Below the pieces are notes generated by a model, which ran no database searches, was not told the origin of the DNA, and saw only the letters and a program-made list of their open reading frames with translations. Of a stretch of 22,223 bases of DNA, positions 2,101 through 10,906 are shown one piece after another. The DNA lies in IMG/VR virus record IMGVR_UViG_3300017772_000155, positions 1 to 22,223 of that record, one strand, 5' to 3'. Origin of the DNA: a virus. The stretch's first letter is position 1, and the number at the start of each line of letters is the position of its first letter. The position numbers and the translations under genes were made by a program.

Positions 2101-2894
2101 AAATAAAACTGTTAGACGGCAAGATGTACGATAAGAAATTGCTGTTAGATAATATGTACGAAGATGAGTTCTACTATGGAGAGTTAAACAAACTAGCATT
2201 ATCGTCTAGTTCACTAAAGTTATTGTTAGAGAGTCCTAAAAAATACTACTATGTAACTAAGTATGGTAATAATTTAGATACTCAAGGAATACGTGACGGC
2301 AGACTATTGCACACGTTAGTTCTAGAACCAGATAAGTTCGAGCAATTTCATTTTGTTGACGTACAAAGTAAAAACACTAAAAAGTACAAGGAAGCAAAAG
2401 CAGAGTATGGTATGGTCTATACTATGAAAGAAAAGTCAGATGCAGAACGATTAGCTGATGCACTACTAAGAAACGACATAGCAATTGATATGTTAAAAGA
2501 TACTGAGTTTGAAGTACCTGCGATCAATAATGTGTTCGGCTATCCGTTTAGAGGTAAAGCAGATATACTTTCCAAAAATGGTGTTTGCGACATCAAAACC
2601 ACAACTGATATACGTGCATTCAAGTATAGTGCATTACGTTACGGATATGATGTACAAGCGTACCTGTATTGCGAGTTATTCAACAAAAAGTATTTTGACT
2701 TTAAGTTCTTGGTATTAGACAAGGGCAGTCTAGACATAGGTGTGTTTGAATGTAGTGAGGAGTTCTACTTAAAAGGCGAGGAAAAAGTAAAGTTTGCAAT
2801 AGAACGATACAAGGAATACTTCGCAGGTAAAGACTGGACAACTACAGAGATAGCAGAGCAGTTAGACAATTACATTATTAAAGATATATTATGA
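2097..2894 (+). CDS. RecE/ExoVIII-like PD-(D/E)XK exonuclease (265 aa)
   Basis: This protein probably degrades one strand of double-stranded DNA to feed phage recombination or replication, like the ExoVIII/lambda-exonuclease group. Seen in order: a SSSSLKLLLESPKKYYY segment at residues 36-52, typical of the N-terminus of this family; G68-R-L-L-H72-T with E77-P; E139; D156 in GKADIL; D165-I-K167-T-T, the D-x-K active-site strand; and YDVQAYLY (184-191), the Q-x-Y motif of RecB-like nucleases. The ATG at 2097 is preferred over 2064 because it makes the ATGA overlap with the preceding gene. A partner single-strand annealing protein is not visible in the window. Length is normal for phage members. 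Confidence 0.85.
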   Translation: MKIKLLDGKMYDKKLLLDNMYEDEFYYGELNKLALSSSSLKLLLESPKKYYYVTKYGNNLDTQGIRDGRLLHTLVLEPDKFEQFHFVDVQSKNTKKYKEAKAEYGMVYTMKEKSDAERLADALLRNDIAIDMLKDTEFEVPAINNVFGYPFRGKADILSKNGVCDIKTTTDIRAFKYSALRYGYDVQAYLYCELFNKKYFDFKFLVLDKGSLDIGVFECSEEFYLKGEEKVKFAIERYKEYFAGKDWTTTEIAEQLDNYIIKDIL

Positions 2895-3289
2895 CAGTAT
2901 TACAAAAAAGGATAGCGGACAAGGTACGTTCAGTTACTGGTGTTGATCCGTTTGTAAACACACGGAAAAGAGAATATGTAGAAGCAAGATCTTTGTTGGT
3001 GTTTATATATTACAAAGTATGCAGGTTAAACTACACGCAGATCACTAGATTGTTTCAAAGTCAAGGTAAGGATATGCACCACGCAACAGTAATACATTCG
3101 TTAAGAAATTTCGATATGTATAAAAAATTCAATCCTTTGTTTAACGAACTAGTAACAGATGTCCTAGCACAAGATAGTTGGGGATCTACAACACAAAAAA
3201 CTGAGTACATTAAACAACGTTTAGACAACGCTCCTAAAGAAGTAGTAGAGGACGTATACACAATAATATCAAACGAATATAGAATATGA
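2891..3289 (+). CDS. DnaA domain IV-like DNA-binding protein (132 aa)
   Basis: The central region resembles the C-terminal DNA-binding domain of the replication initiator DnaA. An ARSLLVFIYYKVCRLNYTQI helix pair (residues 32-51) is followed by IxxxF, then KDMHHATVIHSLRNF (60-74), matching the DnaA signature D-H-x-T-V-x-H-A. In DnaA this helix-turn-helix and signature loop reads DnaA boxes. The AAA+ ATPase domain is missing, so it cannot be a complete initiator; it could mark a phage origin, recruit host replication proteins, or compete with host DnaA. A C-terminal acidic helix follows. It is ATGA-coupled to the exonuclease upstream and to the deacetylase downstream. Confidence 0.7.
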   Translation: MTVLQKRIADKVRSVTGVDPFVNTRKREYVEARSLLVFIYYKVCRLNYTQITRLFQSQGKDMHHATVIHSLRNFDMYKKFNPLFNELVTDVLAQDSWGSTTQKTEYIKQRLDNAPKEVVEDVYTIISNEYRI

Positions 3290-3906
3290 AAGCACCAAAA
3301 AAAATTTTAGTAATATCCCCTCACATAGATGACGAAGTATTAGGAGTTGGTGGTTATATGGCTAAAGATCATATAGAAGCAGATGTATTGTTAGTTAATT
3401 ACACTTTGGAAAGATTGTATGAACACAACAATATGAAAAAAATAGTAGGCGTAAACAACACGTTTACCTTGTATGATGATAAAGATGGTAAAAACGATTT
3501 AATGCCTAGTCTGGATCTTATAAAGTATATAGACAATTTGTTGGAGTTCAATGAATATGACGAATTGTTCATTCCGTATAAAAGTCATCATCAAGATCAT
3601 CAAAAAATTTACGATTGTTGTTTAGCGGCAATTAGACTAAGACAAGATGTATCGCCAGTTCCGTTAGTTGCAATGTATGAATACCCTTTTATCAATGAAA
3701 CGCCAAACGGAGGTGCTTGGTATGTAAACATTGATGATACTATAAATAAAAAAGTAGAAGGATTTCTAGAAAACAAATCGCAGTTAAAAAGAAAACCTGC
3801 TCCGTTAAATAAAGAAAGTGTATTAACGTTAGCTAAAATGAGAGGTATGGAATGTGGATCAGAATATGCTGAAAAATTTTATATAGTTAGACTTATTACA
3901 AAATGA
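3286..3906 (+). CDS. PIG-L/LmbE-family N-acetyl-sugar deacetylase (206 aa)
   Basis: Seen: a Rossmann-like start (KKILVISPHIDDEVLG) with the family motif P12-H-x-D-D-E17, and a second motif H101-H-Q-D-H105 equivalent to the family HPDH. In PIG-L and MshB-type enzymes H13, D16 and H105 would hold zinc and D15 acts as general base, removing acetate from N-acetylglucosamine-type groups. Length (206) is typical of minimal members. It is the first gene of a four-gene overlapping cassette with WbqC-like, ParB-like and glycosyltransferase genes, so its substrate is probably a sugar attached by that cassette, on DNA or on a virion or cell glycan. The fold and chemistry are well supported; the substrate is inference. 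Confidence 0.92.
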   Translation: MKAPKKILVISPHIDDEVLGVGGYMAKDHIEADVLLVNYTLERLYEHNNMKKIVGVNNTFTLYDDKDGKNDLMPSLDLIKYIDNLLEFNEYDELFIPYKSHHQDHQKIYDCCLAAIRLRQDVSPVPLVAMYEYPFINETPNGGAWYVNIDDTINKKVEGFLENKSQLKRKPAPLNKESVLTLAKMRGMECGSEYAEKFYIVRLITK

Positions 3907-4586
3907 TAGTTACAGCACATCAGCCAGAATTTATGTCTTATGTAGGTTATTTCGATAAGATATGTAAAGCAGACAAATTAGTAGTATTAGACTCGGTTGC
4001 TTATAGGAAAAACTATTTTCAAAACAGGAATCAGATACTAGGCAAAGATGCACAAAAATGGATTACAATACCAGTACAAAAATATAGTTTAGGTACTAGA
4101 ATAGCAGATATAAAAATAAACCACGATTTGCATTGGCAGAAAAAAATGATTACAACAATAAAACAGTCTTATGCAAAGGCAAATTTTTTTGACCAGTATT
4201 TTCCGAAACTAGAAAAGTTGTTAATTCAAAAAGACGAATACTTATGGCAGTATAATTTAAGGTTCTTGGATTTTTTCTTAAATGAATTAGGTATTGATAT
4301 ACAAAAAATAATGTCTAGTAGTTTGGATCTTCAAGAAAGTAAAGATAAAATGGTGTTAGAATTGTGTGTTAAAACAAAAGCCGATACATACGTAGCAGGT
4401 ATTTCTGGAAAAGACTATCTAAATGAAAACGACTTTAAAAAAGCAGGTGTAAAATTATACCATCACGATTATATACAAAAGCCATATAAACAGTTTAAAC
4501 ACAAGTTTGTGCCATATATGTCGGTGTTGGATTTATTAATGCACGAAGGAAGTCAATCTAAAAATTATATAAACAGTAAATTATGA
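3903..4586 (+). CDS. WbqC-like family protein (227 aa)
   Basis: The N-terminus carries the WbqC-family signature: HQPEFMSYVGYFDKI (residues 6-20), then a KADKLVVLDSVAYRKNYFQNRN stretch (22-43) and KWITIPV (72-78), with YVAGISGKDYL near residues 162-172. WbqC-like proteins occur in O-antigen and surface-glycan clusters and are thought to be transferases acting on sugars or amino-sugars, but their reaction is poorly defined. Here the gene overlaps the PIG-L deacetylase by 4 bases and the ParB-like gene by 4, which suggests it acts right after deacetylation, for example on the freed amine. That step is inference. No signal peptide is seen, so it acts in the cytoplasm. Confidence 0.88.
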   Translation: MIVTAHQPEFMSYVGYFDKICKADKLVVLDSVAYRKNYFQNRNQILGKDAQKWITIPVQKYSLGTRIADIKINHDLHWQKKMITTIKQSYAKANFFDQYFPKLEKLLIQKDEYLWQYNLRFLDFFLNELGIDIQKIMSSSLDLQESKDKMVLELCVKTKADTYVAGISGKDYLNENDFKKAGVKLYHHDYIQKPYKQFKHKFVPYMSVLDLLMHEGSQSKNYINSKL

Positions 4587-5197
4587 AAGTTAGAAATTAC
4601 AAAATCACGGATTTAAAAAAAGCAGAGTACAATCCTAGACAGTTAAAAAAGGAACAGTACCTGCAAATCAAAAAGAGTATAGAAACATTCGGTTTCGCAG
4701 AACCGCTAGTAATTAATACCCACAAGGATAGAGAAGGTGTTATTATAGGTGGACATCAAAGGTTTAGAATTGCAAAAGATCTAGGTTTTAGAGAAGTTCC
4801 TTGTGTTGAATTAGATTTAGAACCAGAAAAGGAAAAGGAATTAAATATTAGATTAAATAAAAACACAGGAGAATTTGATTTCGATTTATTAGCAAACTTA
4901 TTTGATAAGGAGTTTCTTTTAGATGTAGGTTTTAAAGAAGGGGAGTTAGGAATGTTCTTAGATGACTATGAAGATGAGTTTTATAAGATAGATGACACTA
5001 ACGCAGAAATGCCAGTAATACCTAAATTCTCGGAAAAATATGATTGTGTTATAATTACAAGTGACAACGAAATAGATACAACGTACTTAGAAACAGTATT
5101 AGAAATAAGTAAGGCACAAAGTTATAAGAATCAGCATATGGGTAAGGCAATGGTATTAACAGTTAAAGACTTTCAGAAATTATGGGCATCAAAATAG
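4583..5197 (+). CDS. ParB/Srx-fold (ParB-like nuclease domain) protein (204 aa)
   Basis: Residues 1-95 match the ParB/sulfiredoxin-fold domain: YNPRQ (16-20), a helix KKEQYLQIKKSIETFG, a strand PLVIN, then the nucleotide-binding motif G56-G-H-Q-R60-x-x-A and VPCVEL. Phage members of this fold are often next to DNA methyltransferases or other DNA-modification genes, where the domain may bind DNA or a nucleotide and hydrolyse or transfer phosphate. The C-terminal half (about 125-204), with KYDCVIITSDNEIDTTYLE, is a second alpha/beta region typical of phage versions. It lacks the ParB helix-turn-helix and dimer domain, so plasmid partition is unlikely. Its place between the WbqC-like gene and the glycosyltransferase suggests a role in targeting modification. 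Confidence 0.85.
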   Translation: MKVRNYKITDLKKAEYNPRQLKKEQYLQIKKSIETFGFAEPLVINTHKDREGVIIGGHQRFRIAKDLGFREVPCVELDLEPEKEKELNIRLNKNTGEFDFDLLANLFDKEFLLDVGFKEGELGMFLDDYEDEFYKIDDTNAEMPVIPKFSEKYDCVIITSDNEIDTTYLETVLEISKAQSYKNQHMGKAMVLTVKDFQKLWASK

Positions 5198-5922
5198 AAG
5201 TAATAATTCCATCGCACAAAAGAGCAGGTAGAGTTCCTACTCTTAAAGCAATAGATAACGCAAAATTATGTGTGCCTAATTCACAAAAGGAAGAATACGA
5301 ATCACACCACCCAAATACGGAAATTATAGGACACCCAGACAGTGTAATAGGTTTGACAGCAAAACGTCAATGGATATACGAAAACTATCCAAACGTATTT
5401 ATGATTGATGACGATATAAAAAACTTTATGAGATTATATATAGAGAAAGGAGAAGATGCTAAAATGTTACCAGACGAAGCGTATGAATTAGTGCAATGGT
5501 TAGGTAATGTAGCAAAATTAATGGGGTGTTATTTGTTTGGTGTAAATAAAAATCCAAGTCCTGCTCAATATATGGAGTACAAACCTATCAAACGAACTGG
5601 TTATATAGGTGGAACTATTGGTATGTTAGAGGGATCAAAATTGTATTATGATACAGATATGCAGGTAGTAGAGGACTATCAAATATGTGCGTTAAACGCT
5701 TATTACCATAGGCATAGTTTTATTGATACTAGATTTTCGGTAGTAGGTACTGATACATTTGGGAATGTAGGTGGTTGTGCTAGTTACAGAACTAAGGAAG
5801 TAGAAAAAAATGATACGTTAATGTTAAGGAAAAAATATGGAGAGATCATTGGACTAAAAAAAGATACTCAATTAGCATCAAGAAAACACGAATTTATGAG
5901 AACCTTGAAAGTGCCATTTTGA
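5182..5922 (+). CDS. Putative TET/JBP-associated-type (GREB1-like) glycosyltransferase (246 aa)
   Basis: The protein starts like a GT-A glycosyltransferase: IKIEVIIPSHKRAGRVPT (3-20). A LTAKRQWIYENYPNVF segment and M74-I-D-D-D78-I follow, the DDD acting as the metal and sugar-nucleotide site. Further on come GGTIGML and VVEDYQICALNAYY, where the E-D could supply the catalytic acid. This layout, IPSxKRA then MIDDDI, is that of phage glycosyltransferases related to GREB1 and the J-base transferase, proposed to glycosylate hydroxymethylated pyrimidines in DNA. The gene overlaps the ParB-like gene by 16 bases. It could instead glycosylate a virion or surface target. No oxygenase or hydroxymethylase making an acceptor base is in the window. 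A promoter overlaps its stop codon. Confidence 0.75.
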   Translation: MGIKIEVIIPSHKRAGRVPTLKAIDNAKLCVPNSQKEEYESHHPNTEIIGHPDSVIGLTAKRQWIYENYPNVFMIDDDIKNFMRLYIEKGEDAKMLPDEAYELVQWLGNVAKLMGCYLFGVNKNPSPAQYMEYKPIKRTGYIGGTIGMLEGSKLYYDTDMQVVEDYQICALNAYYHRHSFIDTRFSVVGTDTFGNVGGCASYRTKEVEKNDTLMLRKKYGEIIGLKKDTQLASRKHEFMRTLKVPF

Positions 5923-5971: not shown

Positions 5972-6574
5972 ATGGCAGATTTTACAATGCAAACTAAAAA
6001 AGGTTATGATTTCTTTGAAGTATCATCGTCTTTTCAAAAATCAATTCGTAGATGTATGGAAGAGGAATCTCTATACTGGGCAATCGAATTGTGGGAATCC
6101 AATTACAAGGAATACGTATGGAAACGTATGTTAATTATCGCATCGGAAGATGTAGGTATTGCTGAACCTAATATGGTTACAAATATTTGGTCTTTGTATC
6201 AAGTTTATACATTATTAGCAAAGAAAAAGGACAAGCATTGTCCAGAAAAATTACATTTTGTACAGGCAATAGTTATGTTAGCTAGGTGTAAAAAATCCAG
6301 ATATATTGATATGATATTGTGCCAAAAATTTATGTCGCACAAAAATACGTATTTGGAAATACCAGAATGGGCGTATGATATGCACACCAGAAAAGGACGT
6401 AAAATGGGTAGATCTGGTAAAAACGGAATCGCTCATTTTTATGAATCCTCAGCAAAAATAAATAATAACGGAAATGTAGCAGGGGAAAAGGAATTGTTCG
6501 AGCAGGTAATGGAAACCGAAATGAATGAGTTCAAACCAAAAGTCCCTGCAAATTTATTCGATACAGATCAATAA
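5972..6574 (+). CDS. RarA/MgsA C-terminal-domain-like protein without ATPase (200 aa)
   Basis: Residues 10-70 resemble the helical C-terminal region of RarA/MgsA, the replication-restart ATPase: QKSIRRCMEEESLYWAIEL followed by VWKRMLIIASEDVGIAEP (49-66). The latter parallels the RarA stretch R-R-L-x-x-x-A-S-E-D-I-G-L-A-D-P. In RarA this part drives tetramer formation. The AAA+ ATPase part is absent, so the phage protein could bind host RarA or act alone at forks or DNA ends. It has a Lys/Arg-rich stretch near 145-155 (RKGRKMGRSGKNG) and a C-terminal VPANLFDTDQ. It follows a consensus promoter with an A-rich leader and directly precedes the terminase genes. The domain call rests on remembered motif similarity. 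Confidence 0.65.
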   Translation: MADFTMQTKKGYDFFEVSSSFQKSIRRCMEEESLYWAIELWESNYKEYVWKRMLIIASEDVGIAEPNMVTNIWSLYQVYTLLAKKKDKHCPEKLHFVQAIVMLARCKKSRYIDMILCQKFMSHKNTYLEIPEWAYDMHTRKGRKMGRSGKNGIAHFYESSAKINNNGNVAGEKELFEQVMETEMNEFKPKVPANLFDTDQ

Positions 6575-6575
6575 T

Positions 6576-6965
6576 ATGAAAAGCAAAGAAAAATTTTTAG
6601 AAAACTTTAAATTGTCGTTAGGTAACATTAGTATAAGTTGTGAAGCGTCTGGCATATCTCGTCAGACGTATTACAATTGGACAAAGCAAGATGCGGATTT
6701 CTCAAGTCAATGTAGAGATATTGAAGAACGTAATCTAGATCTAGCAGAAATGAAATTGCTAAGTGCTATTAGGGAAGGTAAAACCGCAGAGTTATTGTTT
6801 TACTTAAAGACCAAAGGCAAGAAGCGAGGATACGTAGAACGCCAAGAGATAACAGGAGCAGAAGGACAGCAATTGTTTGAAGTACGAATCATAGATACAG
6901 CAGATCAACTTGAAAGTAATACACACGAACAAAGTATTCCGACACTTACAACAGGACAGGAGTAA
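6576..6965 (+). CDS. terS: Terminase small subunit (129 aa)
   Basis: The start at 6576 is preferred over an in-frame ATG at 6525 because it sits one base after the upstream stop and gives the expected short N-terminus. Residues 14-36 form a helix-turn-helix (LGNISISCEASGISRQTYYNW), as in small terminases that recognise the packaging site. Next come an acidic helix (DIEERNLDLAEMKLLSAI) and LLFYLKTKGKKRGYVERQEITG (70-91), a stretch very typical of phage small terminases. It forms the DNA-recognition part of the packaging motor with the large subunit encoded just downstream. The gene overlaps the large subunit by 56 bases, so the two are probably translationally coupled. Confidence 0.85.
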   Translation: MKSKEKFLENFKLSLGNISISCEASGISRQTYYNWTKQDADFSSQCRDIEERNLDLAEMKLLSAIREGKTAELLFYLKTKGKKRGYVERQEITGAEGQQLFEVRIIDTADQLESNTHEQSIPTLTTGQE

Positions 6966-8064
6966 GATAGTAGTACAGCAAGGTGGTACACGTTCTGGAA
7001 AAACGTATAACATTTTGATGTGGATCATTTTCGCCTATTGTCAACAAAACAAGGGTAAGATGGTTACTGTCGTGCGTAAATCATTTCCTGCTGTTAGGGG
7101 TACTGTTATGCGTGACTTTTTTCAGATCCTGCGAGATTACAATATGTACTCAGAAGATTTGCATAGCAAGTCTAATAATGAATATGTAATAGAAGGTAAC
7201 ACTGTCGAGTTTATTTCATTAGACATACCGCAAAAGATACGAGGTAGGAAACGTGATCTGCTATTTGTAAATGAAGCAAACGAATTAAACTTCGAGGACT
7301 GGCAACAGTTAGTATTCAGAACAACGGAACAAATCATAATAGATTACAATCCATCGGAGGAGTTTCACTGGATATATGACAAAGTATTAACTAGAGATGA
7401 TTGCTCTTTTTATCAGACTACGTATCTAGATAATCCGTTTCTGCCAGTTCAGATCGTAGAAGAGATAGAACGACTTAAAGAAACAGACGAGAACTACTGG
7501 AGAGTATACGGACTAGGAGAACGTGGTCAGAGTCGATCTCTTGTATTTACTTTCAGTACGATACCTAGTATACCACCTAGAGCAAAACTAATTAGCTACG
7601 GACTGGATTTTGGATTTAGTAATGATCCTACAGCAATGGTCGGTACTTATATGGAAGGCGACAATATCTATGTAAACGAATTGATATATCGTACAGGTAT
7701 GACAAACCAAGATATAGCAAATGAATTAGGTAAACTAGGACTAGATAGGCGTGATGAGGTTTTTGCAGATAGTTCTGAACCTAAAAGTATAGAAGAGATC
7801 CATCGAATGGGTTGGAATGTAAAGTCGGTAAGCAAAGGAACGATCAATCAAGGTATAGATATGTTACGAAGGTACAAGTTGCATATAACAGAAAGCAGTA
7901 GTAATGTCATAAAGGAGATGCGAAACTATAAATACATTGAAGATAAAAACGGAGATCTAACTAACAAGCCGTTAGATAAATACAATCACGCTTGTGACGC
8001 TCTCAGATACTCAGTAATTAACAAACTGAACAGACCAAACTACGGAACATACGCTATTAGATAA
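6910..8064 (+). CDS. terL: Terminase large subunit (384 aa, TTG start)
   Basis: This is the packaging ATPase and nuclease. Seen: Walker A G25-G-T-R-S-G-K-T32; Walker B DLLFVNEA (116-123) with catalytic E122; a C-terminal RNase H-like nuclease with D233 (GLDFGFSNDPTA), D287 (VFADSSEP) and D363 (HACDALRYS). It belongs to the PBSX/phage large-terminase type and has a normal length. The frame opens after a TAG at 6892, and the only usual start before Walker A is TTG at 6910; the next ATG (7018) would delete Walker A. So TTG, inside terS, is very likely the true start. No intein or frameshift is seen. It is followed by a promoter region and small genes, not by a portal gene. Confidence 0.95.
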   Translation: MKVIHTNKVFRHLQQDRSKIVVQQGGTRSGKTYNILMWIIFAYCQQNKGKMVTVVRKSFPAVRGTVMRDFFQILRDYNMYSEDLHSKSNNEYVIEGNTVEFISLDIPQKIRGRKRDLLFVNEANELNFEDWQQLVFRTTEQIIIDYNPSEEFHWIYDKVLTRDDCSFYQTTYLDNPFLPVQIVEEIERLKETDENYWRVYGLGERGQSRSLVFTFSTIPSIPPRAKLISYGLDFGFSNDPTAMVGTYMEGDNIYVNELIYRTGMTNQDIANELGKLGLDRRDEVFADSSEPKSIEEIHRMGWNVKSVSKGTINQGIDMLRRYKLHITESSSNVIKEMRNYKYIEDKNGDLTNKPLDKYNHACDALRYSVINKLNRPNYGTYAIR

Positions 8065-9298: not shown

Positions 9299-9562
9299 AT
9301 GAAAGAAGCATTTATATTAAAAACAATATCGTTACACTCTAGTCCAGACGTAGTTCATATTGAATCTATAGGATACGATCAAAGCGAAGCATTAATGATT
9401 GAGTATGACGCAAGAGCATTGTTAGAGGATATACCTTCATTGTATAGAATGGCAAAGCAATCAATCGAACAAGGAGAAAAATACGAACGTAAGAAATACA
9501 AAGAGTTTGAAAAACAACTAGCAGAAGATTTCAAAGGTAAGCGTGGTAGACCACGTAAGTAG
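9299..9562 (+). CDS. Hypothetical protein with C-terminal AT-hook (87 aa)
   Basis: The N-terminal half (residues 1-35) is beta-rich, the middle is a charged helix (MAKQSIEQGEKYERKKYKEFEKQLAEDF), and the last eight residues, GKRGRPRK, contain the AT-hook core R-G-R-P flanked by basic residues. AT-hooks bind the minor groove of AT-rich DNA, so the protein may coat or organise DNA or modulate transcription. A preceding 22-base gap has an A-rich leader. The gene ends 24 bases before a strong terminator, so it is the last gene of the small-gene unit. Confidence 0.6.
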   Translation: MKEAFILKTISLHSSPDVVHIESIGYDQSEALMIEYDARALLEDIPSLYRMAKQSIEQGEKYERKKYKEFEKQLAEDFKGKRGRPRK

Positions 9563-9585
9563 TGATTATTTTTTAGTTAATGACT

Positions 9586-9613
9586 GGGGTAGCAGAGATG
9601 TTGCCCCTTTTTT
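9586..9613 (+). terminator. Rho-independent terminator
   Basis: An 8-bp stem GGGGTAGC (9586-9593) with GTTGCCCC (9600-9607), including two G-U pairs, a 6-base loop, then six T. It separates the small-gene unit from the tail genes. Confidence 0.85.
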
Positions 9614-9642
9614 ATGTCTAGTACAATTGTCGTTAGTAATTT

Positions 9643-9654
9643 GTTATATATAAT
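9643..9654 (+). promoter_or_regulatory. GTTATATATAAT element, copy 1 of a recurrent late-gene motif
   Basis: GTTATATATAAT lies just after the terminator and 27 bases upstream of the tail chaperone ATG. The same GTTATATA core occurs before genes at 16711, 17943 and 20264. It could be the core of a late promoter used by a phage factor or another start-proximal signal. It does not fit TAnnTTTG. Confidence 0.4.
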
Positions 9655-9669
9655 ATAAAGCGATCTAAG

Positions 9670-10323
9670 ATGCAAATAGAAATAGAAGTACCCTCTAACC
9701 TATCGGAAATAACTTTACAGCAATACACACGTTATTTAAATCTCATAGAGGTTAATCAAGACGTAGAACACATAGACAAGTTTATGTCGTTGAAGATGTT
9801 AGAAATCTTTTGTAATGTTCCGTATAAGTCAGCATTAGAATTAAAAATAACTGATGTAAACAGGGTAGTGGATCACATAGTAGAACTGCTAAATCAAAAA
9901 CCAGAACTAGTACAAACGTTTACAATTGGAGATACAGAATTTGGTTTCATTCCTAAGTTAGACGATATGACATTTGGGGAGTATATAGATTTAGATCAGT
10001 TTCTAGGTAACTGGGAGAATATGTATAAAGCAATGGCAGTATTATACAGACCAATCAACAAGCGAGTAGGTAAGTTTTATAATATAAAAGAATACTCTGG
10101 GGACAGCTACTGGGAAGCAATGCAGTTAACACCATTAGACGCAGTATTAAGTTCTACACTTTTTTTTTATCATTTAGGGATCGACTTGTCGAAACTTATG
10201 ACGAACTCTTTACTGGAGAATCAAGCGGAAGTAACCTTGCCAAAGGATTTGGAAAAAAATGGGGTTGGTATCAATCAGTTTACGCACTCGCTCAAGGAGA
10301 TGTTAGACGATATGAAAATATAA
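9670..10323 (+). CDS. Tail assembly chaperone, short form (gpG-like, 217 aa)
   Basis: This is the zero-frame product of a gene with the lambda G/GT layout. It is helical, starts MQIEIEVPSNLSEITLQQY and lies shortly upstream of the tail proteins and tape measure. The sequence alone gives no strong family motif. The call rests on a slippery site near its 3' end and a following -1 frame whose 53 residues look like the C-terminal part of phage tail chaperones (see next entries). In lambda the short form coats the tape measure and the long form recruits the tail tube protein. Upstream are a terminator and a GTTATATA element, so this is the first gene of the tail unit. Confidence 0.7.
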   Translation: MQIEIEVPSNLSEITLQQYTRYLNLIEVNQDVEHIDKFMSLKMLEIFCNVPYKSALELKITDVNRVVDHIVELLNQKPELVQTFTIGDTEFGFIPKLDDMTFGEYIDLDQFLGNWENMYKAMAVLYRPINKRVGKFYNIKEYSGDSYWEAMQLTPLDAVLSSTLFFYHLGIDLSKLMTNSLLENQAEVTLPKDLEKNGVGINQFTHSLKEMLDDMKI

Positions 10324-10421
10324 CTAGTATGAATATGCACACGTGTTTATTAGCACTTAGTTTCGAAAAAGAAAAGCAAGAAATAGAAAACAAGAACATA
10401 CAAAATAAATTTAAGAGATGA
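9670..10421 (+). CDS. Tail assembly chaperone, frameshifted long form (gpGT-like, about 250 aa)
   Basis: After the -1 slip the protein continues KWGWYQSVYALAQGDVRRYE, then NITSMNMHTCLLALSFEKEK and ends NKNIQNKFKR at the TGA 10419-10421, adding 53 codons from 10260. The extension has no ribosome start of its own near 10260 and carries the WGWY...YALAxGD...ITxxNxHxCLxxLxFEKEK pattern of phage tail chaperone T-domains, which supports translation as a fusion. Its stop overlaps the next ATG as ATGA, as normal genes do here. An internal ATG at 10329 exists but would start past the conserved part. Confidence 0.7.
10254..10260 (+). promoter_or_regulatory. -1 ribosomal frameshift slippery heptamer A AAA AAT
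   Basis: In the zero frame the codons read GAA AAA AAT, so A10254, AAA 10255-10257 and AAT 10258-10260 form a canonical X XXY YYZ heptamer. Slipping back one base re-pairs AAA in both sites and continues with TGG at 10260. The frame reached has no stop until 10419-10421. Confidence 0.75.
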
Positions 10422-10906
10422 GTTTAGCAAAAGGAAGTAGAGCATTCTATAGATTAACCGAAGCAGTAAGGGATTTCTTATTAACCTTAGATGACGTTAA
10501 TACAGTAACCTTTGGCGATATAACGGAGGTTGACTTGAATAAGCACACTATATTCCCTTTGTCGCACGTAATGGTAAACAACGTAACCCTAAGTGATGGA
10601 ACACTAACGTTTAGCGTAACAGTATTAGCAATGGACGTAGTACACGAGGATAAAGAATTGAACACAGGAAATGTAGACGACACTTATTTTGGTGTAGATA
10701 ACGAACAAGACGTATTGAATACTCAGTTAGCAGTAACTAACTTATTGAACCAGTCTTTGTCTAGGAAATCGTTAAGAGGTAATGGATTTGAATTAACTGG
10801 ATTAGGATCTTGTGAACCATTTACAGATAGATTTGAAAACAAGTTAGCAGGTTGGGCATATACGTTCTCAGCGTTTGTAGCAAACGATATAAACATATGT
10901 GAGTAA
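10418..10906 (+). CDS. Putative tail completion/terminator protein (162 aa)
   Basis: A 162-residue alpha/beta protein. It begins AKGSRAFYRLTEAVRDFLLT (helix). It continues with strands (TVTFGDITEVDL, PLSHVMVNNVTLSDGTLTFSVTVLAMDVV), then helix NEQDVLNTQLAVTNLLNQSL, and ends CEPFTDRFENKLAGWAYTFSAFV. The pattern of helix, long beta sheet and a DRFENKLAGWAxTF ending recurs in Bacteroidota phage genes beside tail genes and fits tail terminator or head-tail joining proteins. The role is inferred from fold pattern and position. It starts in the ATGA overlap with the chaperone extension, and its TAA shares one base with the next ATG. Confidence 0.6.
   Translation: MSLAKGSRAFYRLTEAVRDFLLTLDDVNTVTFGDITEVDLNKHTIFPLSHVMVNNVTLSDGTLTFSVTVLAMDVVHEDKELNTGNVDDTYFGVDNEQDVLNTQLAVTNLLNQSLSRKSLRGNGFELTGLGSCEPFTDRFENKLAGWAYTFSAFVANDINICE

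Follow-up and report, generated by a model that had tools for sequence, protein, structure and literature searches.

To what does the TAGT glycosyltransferase encoded in IMG/VR record IMGVR_UViG_3300017772_000155 attach its sugar, and what do the three genes directly upstream of it contribute? The window analysed here (positions 1-22,223 of that record, a linear fragment) comes from a phage with hosts of the Bacteroidota type. Four forward-strand open reading frames (ORFs), with successive overlaps of 4, 4 and 16 bases, encode a PIG-L/LmbE-type Zn-dependent N-deacetylase (3286-3906), a WbqC-family protein (3903-4586), a ParB-domain protein that we call ParBx (4583-5197) and the TAGT (5182-5922). 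We predict that this cassette specifies a new form of phage DNA hypermodification, in which the main question concerns the base that accepts the sugar. More specifically, the four genes may follow bacillithiol-type chemistry in which a DNA base replaces malate, a proposal that we regard as evenly poised. A solitary TAGT is found in 288 of 753 phage genomes, which are noted in the same study as likely to encode novel transferases (PMC13216743); to one group of these phages the cassette offers a concrete, testable chemistry.

Identity and conservation of the four genes

The TAGT matches PF20691 (E 1.6e-12, 48.2 bits against a curated cut-off of 27.5) and phrog_842 (E 7.6e-27). It carries an M-DDDI motif, and residues D76, D77 and D78 together with E164 and D165 are invariant in an alignment with six relatives. 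The search of named phages with this protein returned mostly T-even-like phages, plus one Streptococcus prophage. With the T-even/T6 and TET-associated TAGTs the enzyme shares both families, a GT-A-type DDD motif and the company of DNA-modification genes, and the T6-type TAGT is a DNA beta-glucosyl-HMC-alpha-glucosyltransferase (PMC13216743). From its gene context, this TAGT is predicted to transfer a GlcNAc-type sugar to DNA.

The match of the deacetylase to PF02585 is weak but passes the cut-off (E 1.9e-6, 28.8 bits against 28.2). Its PH-DD-E and H-DH motifs (H13, D15, D16, H102, D104 and H105) are invariant in six relatives, and comparison of its profile with solved structures gave whole-domain matches to diacetylchitobiose deacetylase and BshB1-type enzymes. 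The WbqC protein matches PF08889 (E 1.6e-67, 228 bits) over profile positions 1-217 of 218. ParBx consists of a ParB_N domain (PF02195, E 1.3e-10) plus a C-terminal domain of about 75 residues. In small alignments of relatives, the HQPE motif of WbqC and the GHQR motif of ParBx are also invariant.

Relatives of the TAGT, ParBx, WbqC and a decarboxylase-like protein (described below) were collected by scanning viral contigs, and the loci are cited here by L numbers. The four-gene order is kept in L004, L005 and L007 (TAGT identity 87-88%) and in L008/L009 (58%); because it recurs in relatives, the array is not a chance arrangement. In L004, L005 and L007 the cassette genes are about 70-88% identical to those of the window, apart from the PIG-L gene of L007. 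PIG-L is just about 40% identical in both L007 and L011, where neighbouring genes exceed 70%, and such low identity beside well-kept neighbours suggests that the PIG-L gene was exchanged in these two loci. The WbqC search of named phages gave 4 matches, and among these and the matches listed for the TAGT the four-gene cassette was not demonstrated. An earlier note on this DNA had described the four genes with their positions, overlaps and motifs, and the ORFs, four Pfam matches, invariant motifs and recurring order confirm that description.

The ParBx-TAGT core and its slot beside the terminase

TAGTs clustered at 90% identity fall into 51 groups. ParBx lies no more than 5 kb from the TAGT in 46 of them, a proportion somewhat inflated by the use of ParBx as a query for fetching some loci, and no more than 60 bases away in 36 of the 51. 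ParBx and TAGT are the constant core of these loci.

In related phages the position beside ParBx and the terminase is occupied by other DNA-modifying enzymes. It holds a TET/JBP protein in L085 (E 4.4e-12) and L120 (E 1.6e-9), Mom in L096 (E 3.8e-45), a C5-cytosine methyltransferase in L139 (E 4.2e-69) and, in L110 (8525-11217), TGT-like, QueC-, QueD- and QueE-like genes that follow ParBx and constitute a 7-deazaguanine DNA-modification set. L085 groups a TAGT (E 1.4e-8) with ParBx and TET/JBP, the TAGT flanking the other two. This is therefore a DNA-modification slot and, since the partners of ParBx all act on DNA, its context makes DNA the most economical target for the TAGT. The slot could also serve as a practical marker for locating more DNA-modification systems.

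ParBx forms part of a longer protein in L088 and L102, and its homologues in named phages fall mostly under genes annotated as DNA methyltransferases. ParBc proteins are also reported to adjoin the cytosine carboxymethyltransferase CmoX (PMC12783734). As in phage ParB-methyltransferase fusions and the ParBc-CmoX pairs, a ParB-N domain is here encoded with a predicted DNA-modifying enzyme, but ParBx stands alone as a small protein, has a C-terminal domain of its own and is partnered with a glycosyltransferase. Among the neighbouring genes scanned, which are modification and terminase genes, we did not find a ParA partner, and the locus is not classed as a ParABS partition system. In two further loci ParBx adjoins an ABC-type ATPase and a GNAT acetyltransferase, which are fused in L114 (8149-9270) and are separate genes in L127 (4103-5923), accompanied by a formyltransferase-like gene; these genes possibly specify an uncharacterised acyl-type DNA modification (phrog_11143).

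In the window, a stand-alone MgsA/RarA C-terminal domain protein (MgsA_C; 5972-6574, forward strand; PF12002, E 2.3e-11) starts after a gap of 49 bases from the TAGT. Many phage loci with ParBx-TAGT, from both Bacteroidota and Clostridia, also encode MgsA_C (among them L033, L034, L061, L169 and L172, including Tenacibaculum), but in the loci examined that hold TET, Mom, C5-methyltransferase or deazaguanine genes no MgsA_C was found next to ParBx. It is possibly a fifth component of the cassette. Unlike the T-even/T6 and TET-associated systems, the cassette pairs its TAGT with ParBx and MgsA_C, and with PIG-L and WbqC as tailoring proteins. The L169 pair (9333-10744), a ParBx-TAGT core that lacks PIG-L, comes from the genome of the isolate Tenacibaculum sp. 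MAR_2009_124, where it probably belongs to a prophage, and would be a practical test system.

A proposed bacillithiol-like route for the sugar

The AlphaFold2 model of the 227-residue WbqC protein has a mean pLDDT (predicted local distance difference test) of 93.1. With VIA-align its top match is BshC (4wbd; Z 14.0, 217 of 227 residues, root-mean-square deviation 3.2), followed by class I lysyl-tRNA synthetase (Z 11.7). The leading Foldseek matches, individually insignificant, are often class I synthetases or nucleotidyl transferases. Judged from the model, WbqC appears to have the class I aminoacyl-tRNA synthetase/HUP nucleotidyl-transferase fold over its whole domain, with BshC as nearest relative in fold. 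The likening of WbqC to BshC, which the present analysis adds from the predicted structure, would give a first mechanistic idea for an uncharacterised family that is found in glycan-type clusters too.

In bacillithiol synthesis BshA is the glycosyltransferase, BshB the deacetylase and BshC the putative Cys ligase (PMC4360819). Because the WbqC model best matches BshC, TAGT, PIG-L and WbqC parallel BshA, BshB and BshC, which glycosylate, deacetylate and ligate an amino acid; the mycothiol enzymes MshA, MshB and MshC likewise comprise a glycosyltransferase, a PIG-L-type deacetylase and a ligase of class I-synthetase fold. The relation of WbqC to BshC is an analogy by fold and gene order, not family membership: WbqC has 227 residues against about 530 and no profile-level sequence match. 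The cassette also differs from the bacillithiol pathway in using a TAGT rather than BshA, and its predicted acceptor is DNA rather than malate.

We propose the following route. The TAGT would transfer an N-acetylamino sugar, probably N-acetylglucosamine (GlcNAc) from UDP-GlcNAc, onto phage DNA, with ParBx and perhaps also MgsA_C assisting it in engaging the DNA. PIG-L would then remove the acetyl group of the DNA-attached sugar, and WbqC, as a small protein of BshC-like class I-synthetase fold, would couple the freed amine to an amino acid or to some other acid. The product, a base decorated with aminoacyl-glucosamine, should guard the DNA from restriction or CRISPR.

The genes around the core vary in a manner that may reflect the sugar. 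PIG-L occurs without WbqC in L082; in L010, L029 and L080, and partially in L031, PIG-L is accompanied by an ATP-grasp-like and a decarboxylase-like protein; and in some loci the partner is a second TAGT. Near the core we also identified an SDR epimerase (L074), an FkbM methyltransferase (L092), a further methyltransferase (L048) and a UDP-sugar (nucleotide-sugar) dehydrogenase (L172). The ATP-grasp proteins of L010 and L080 match Pfam weakly (E 0.017 and 0.0077) and carry conserved motifs. Between the ATP-grasp gene and ParBx lies a phosphatidylserine-decarboxylase-like protein (L010, 7829-8881; L029, 6335-7390; L080, 6955-8004), in which the pyruvoyl-forming G-S pair is conserved and coincides with a partial profile match (hhalign probability 66%). 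Its predicted structure is of low confidence (pLDDT 46.6), and assignment of this sister-variant protein as a decarboxylase is tentative.

On a 48-row TAGT tree, PIG-L presence tracks one TAGT clade: it requires 2 changes, whereas shuffled labels required 10.0 on average and never fewer than 7. For the presence of a second TAGT, 1 change is enough (shuffles: mean 10.8, minimum 7). These few changes indicate that tailoring types go with TAGT lineages, a pattern to be expected if every lineage deals with a sugar of its own. It bears on a different explanation, in which PIG-L and WbqC serve auxiliary metabolism by making a small molecule, such as a bacillithiol-like thiol, and are neighbours of ParBx-TAGT by chance. 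The BshB/BshC parallel would suit such a role, and all 41 Bacteroidota genomes sampled encode a BshC of their own, which was also counted in its favour. However, the PIG-L association follows the TAGT clade, and the place of WbqC between PIG-L and ParBx is taken in other loci by the ATP-grasp and decarboxylase-like genes; we consider an auxiliary metabolic pair highly improbable.

Evidence against the proposed route and alternative explanations

Several results, given in this section, weigh against bacillithiol-type chemistry on DNA. Foldseek with the WbqC model returned nothing at E <= 0.001 (best E 0.05), and comparison of the WbqC profile with a profile built from 25 BshC proteins gave no match (hhalign probability 0.3%). 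The ORF has no match to PF10079 (BshC) and is not a BshC by sequence. A local sequence link to BshC around the HQ motif was rejected, the alignment spanning just 11 columns. As both the hhalign and the HQ-window comparisons were negative, the fold is the only link between WbqC and BshC. According to PMC4360819, ligase activity of BshC itself had not been demonstrated in vitro. In the sister variant, the decarboxylase-like protein has apparent hydrophobic membrane helices, which are odd for a DNA-modifying enzyme.

The gene company of PIG-L and WbqC elsewhere is a further point of this kind. In phage clusters of a glycan type (L151-L159) the two genes are adjacent, as in the cassette, but they lie among epimerase, GDP-mannose-dehydratase-like and glycosyltransferase genes, and ParBx-TAGT is absent. 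The pair alone therefore does not imply a DNA target. The name of the WbqC family derives from surface-polysaccharide gene clusters. Together with the lack of a detected acceptor-base enzyme in TAGT records, these observations speak for a cassette that synthesises or modifies a virion or host-surface glycan, the TAGT being a protein or lipid glycosyltransferase. We judge this distinctly unlikely in view of the core ParBx-TAGT pairing and of the TET/JBP, Mom, C5-methyltransferase and deazaguanine enzymes that fill the same slot. Moreover, the flanks of the window cassette contain no further nucleotide-sugar or glycosyltransferase genes, and instead exonuclease, DnaA-C-like, MgsA_C and terminase genes, so that its surroundings are not those of a surface-glycan cluster.

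The L151-L159 pairs can also be read as a sign that PIG-L and WbqC act earlier, on the nucleotide sugar, with the TAGT moving a ready-made unusual amino sugar to DNA. Nucleotide-sugar enzymes do neighbour the TAGT in L172 and L074. Against such an order, L082 holds PIG-L without WbqC, and in the case of BshB and MshB the deacetylation step comes once the sugar has been transferred (PMC4360819); tailoring before transfer is in our estimate unlikely.

We searched 28 TAGT records of up to 96 kb, including contigs of 32-96 kb, for TET/JBP (PF12851) and thymidylate synthase (PF00303). In contrast to the T-even/T6 and TET-associated systems, neither hydroxymethylating enzyme was found in these possibly fragmentary records; the TET/JBP search detected 3 of 3 positive controls, and the thymidylate synthase search was positive in 9 cellular genomes. 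Since all the TAGT records may be fragments, absence of such an enzyme is not proven. Two of the long relatives (32 and 36 kb) were tallied for Pfam families; they contain helicase, ERF, RadC, portal, holin and MazG genes, and no oxygenase was found in them. A C5-methyltransferase occurs in a few TAGT records, among them L019 and L023. Separately, a weak C5-methyltransferase-like protein of 245 residues is encoded in L051 (6512-7249), directly upstream of ParBx, TAGT and a second TAGT.

Hydroxymethylated pyrimidine, which the earlier note had proposed as acceptor, is thus not supported. Its wider reading, DNA hypermodification, keeps the slot and the tailoring logic: sister phages carry TET/JBP, Mom, a C5-methyltransferase or a DpdA/QueC/QueD/QueE set beside ParBx and terminase, and the idea that PIG-L and after it WbqC tailor the sugar is supported, the BshC-like fold making it more precise. 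Of the two observations that the note had said would tell against it together, one was made in that no TET/JBP or thymidylate synthase partner was found in the TAGT records searched, but the cassettes adjoin ParBx and terminase rather than surface-glycan genes.

It could still be that a hydroxymethyl-pyrimidine is made by an enzyme that is too divergent or encoded on a missing part of the genome, in which case the TAGT system would be of the ordinary kind, apart from its additional tailoring. The fragmentary state of the window and many relatives and the C5-methyltransferases of L019 and L023 favour this explanation, which is compatible with the proposed route, but neither TET/JBP nor thymidylate synthase was matched in any of the 28 records, long contigs included, and the TET/JBP controls were all recovered; we treat it as a minority possibility of some weight. 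Sugar transfer with no visible hydroxymethylating partner would imply either a new acceptor-making route or glycosylation of an unmodified base. At its boldest, the second option would be a DNA-anchored bacillithiol analogue: the TAGT would glycosylate an ordinary base, PIG-L would bare the amine, and WbqC would add cysteine or another amino acid to give thiol- or amine-bearing DNA, the whole WbqC family being amino-acid ligases for amino sugars. We consider this extended version very unlikely.

Genomic surroundings of the cassette

The cassette lies in a run of forward-strand genes from position 2064 to the terminase large subunit, joined by overlaps or short gaps throughout. An exonuclease VIII-like nuclease (2064-2894; PF12684, E 1.8e-20; phrog_412, E 2.2e-35) is followed by a DnaA C-terminal-like helix-turn-helix protein (2891-3289; PF08299, E 1.2e-5, under the Pfam cut-off), the cassette, MgsA_C, and the small (TerS, 6525-6965; phrog_4044, E 2.1e-9) and large (TerL, 6910-8064; phrog_2, E 1.9e-43) terminase subunits. 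The DnaA-C-like gene overlaps the PIG-L gene by 4 bases and, given also the short distance between TAGT and MgsA_C, the four-gene cassette belongs to a longer operon. ARAGORN reported a tRNA-Ser at 6964-7042, within the start of the TerL gene (P-loop region), which is probably a false positive.

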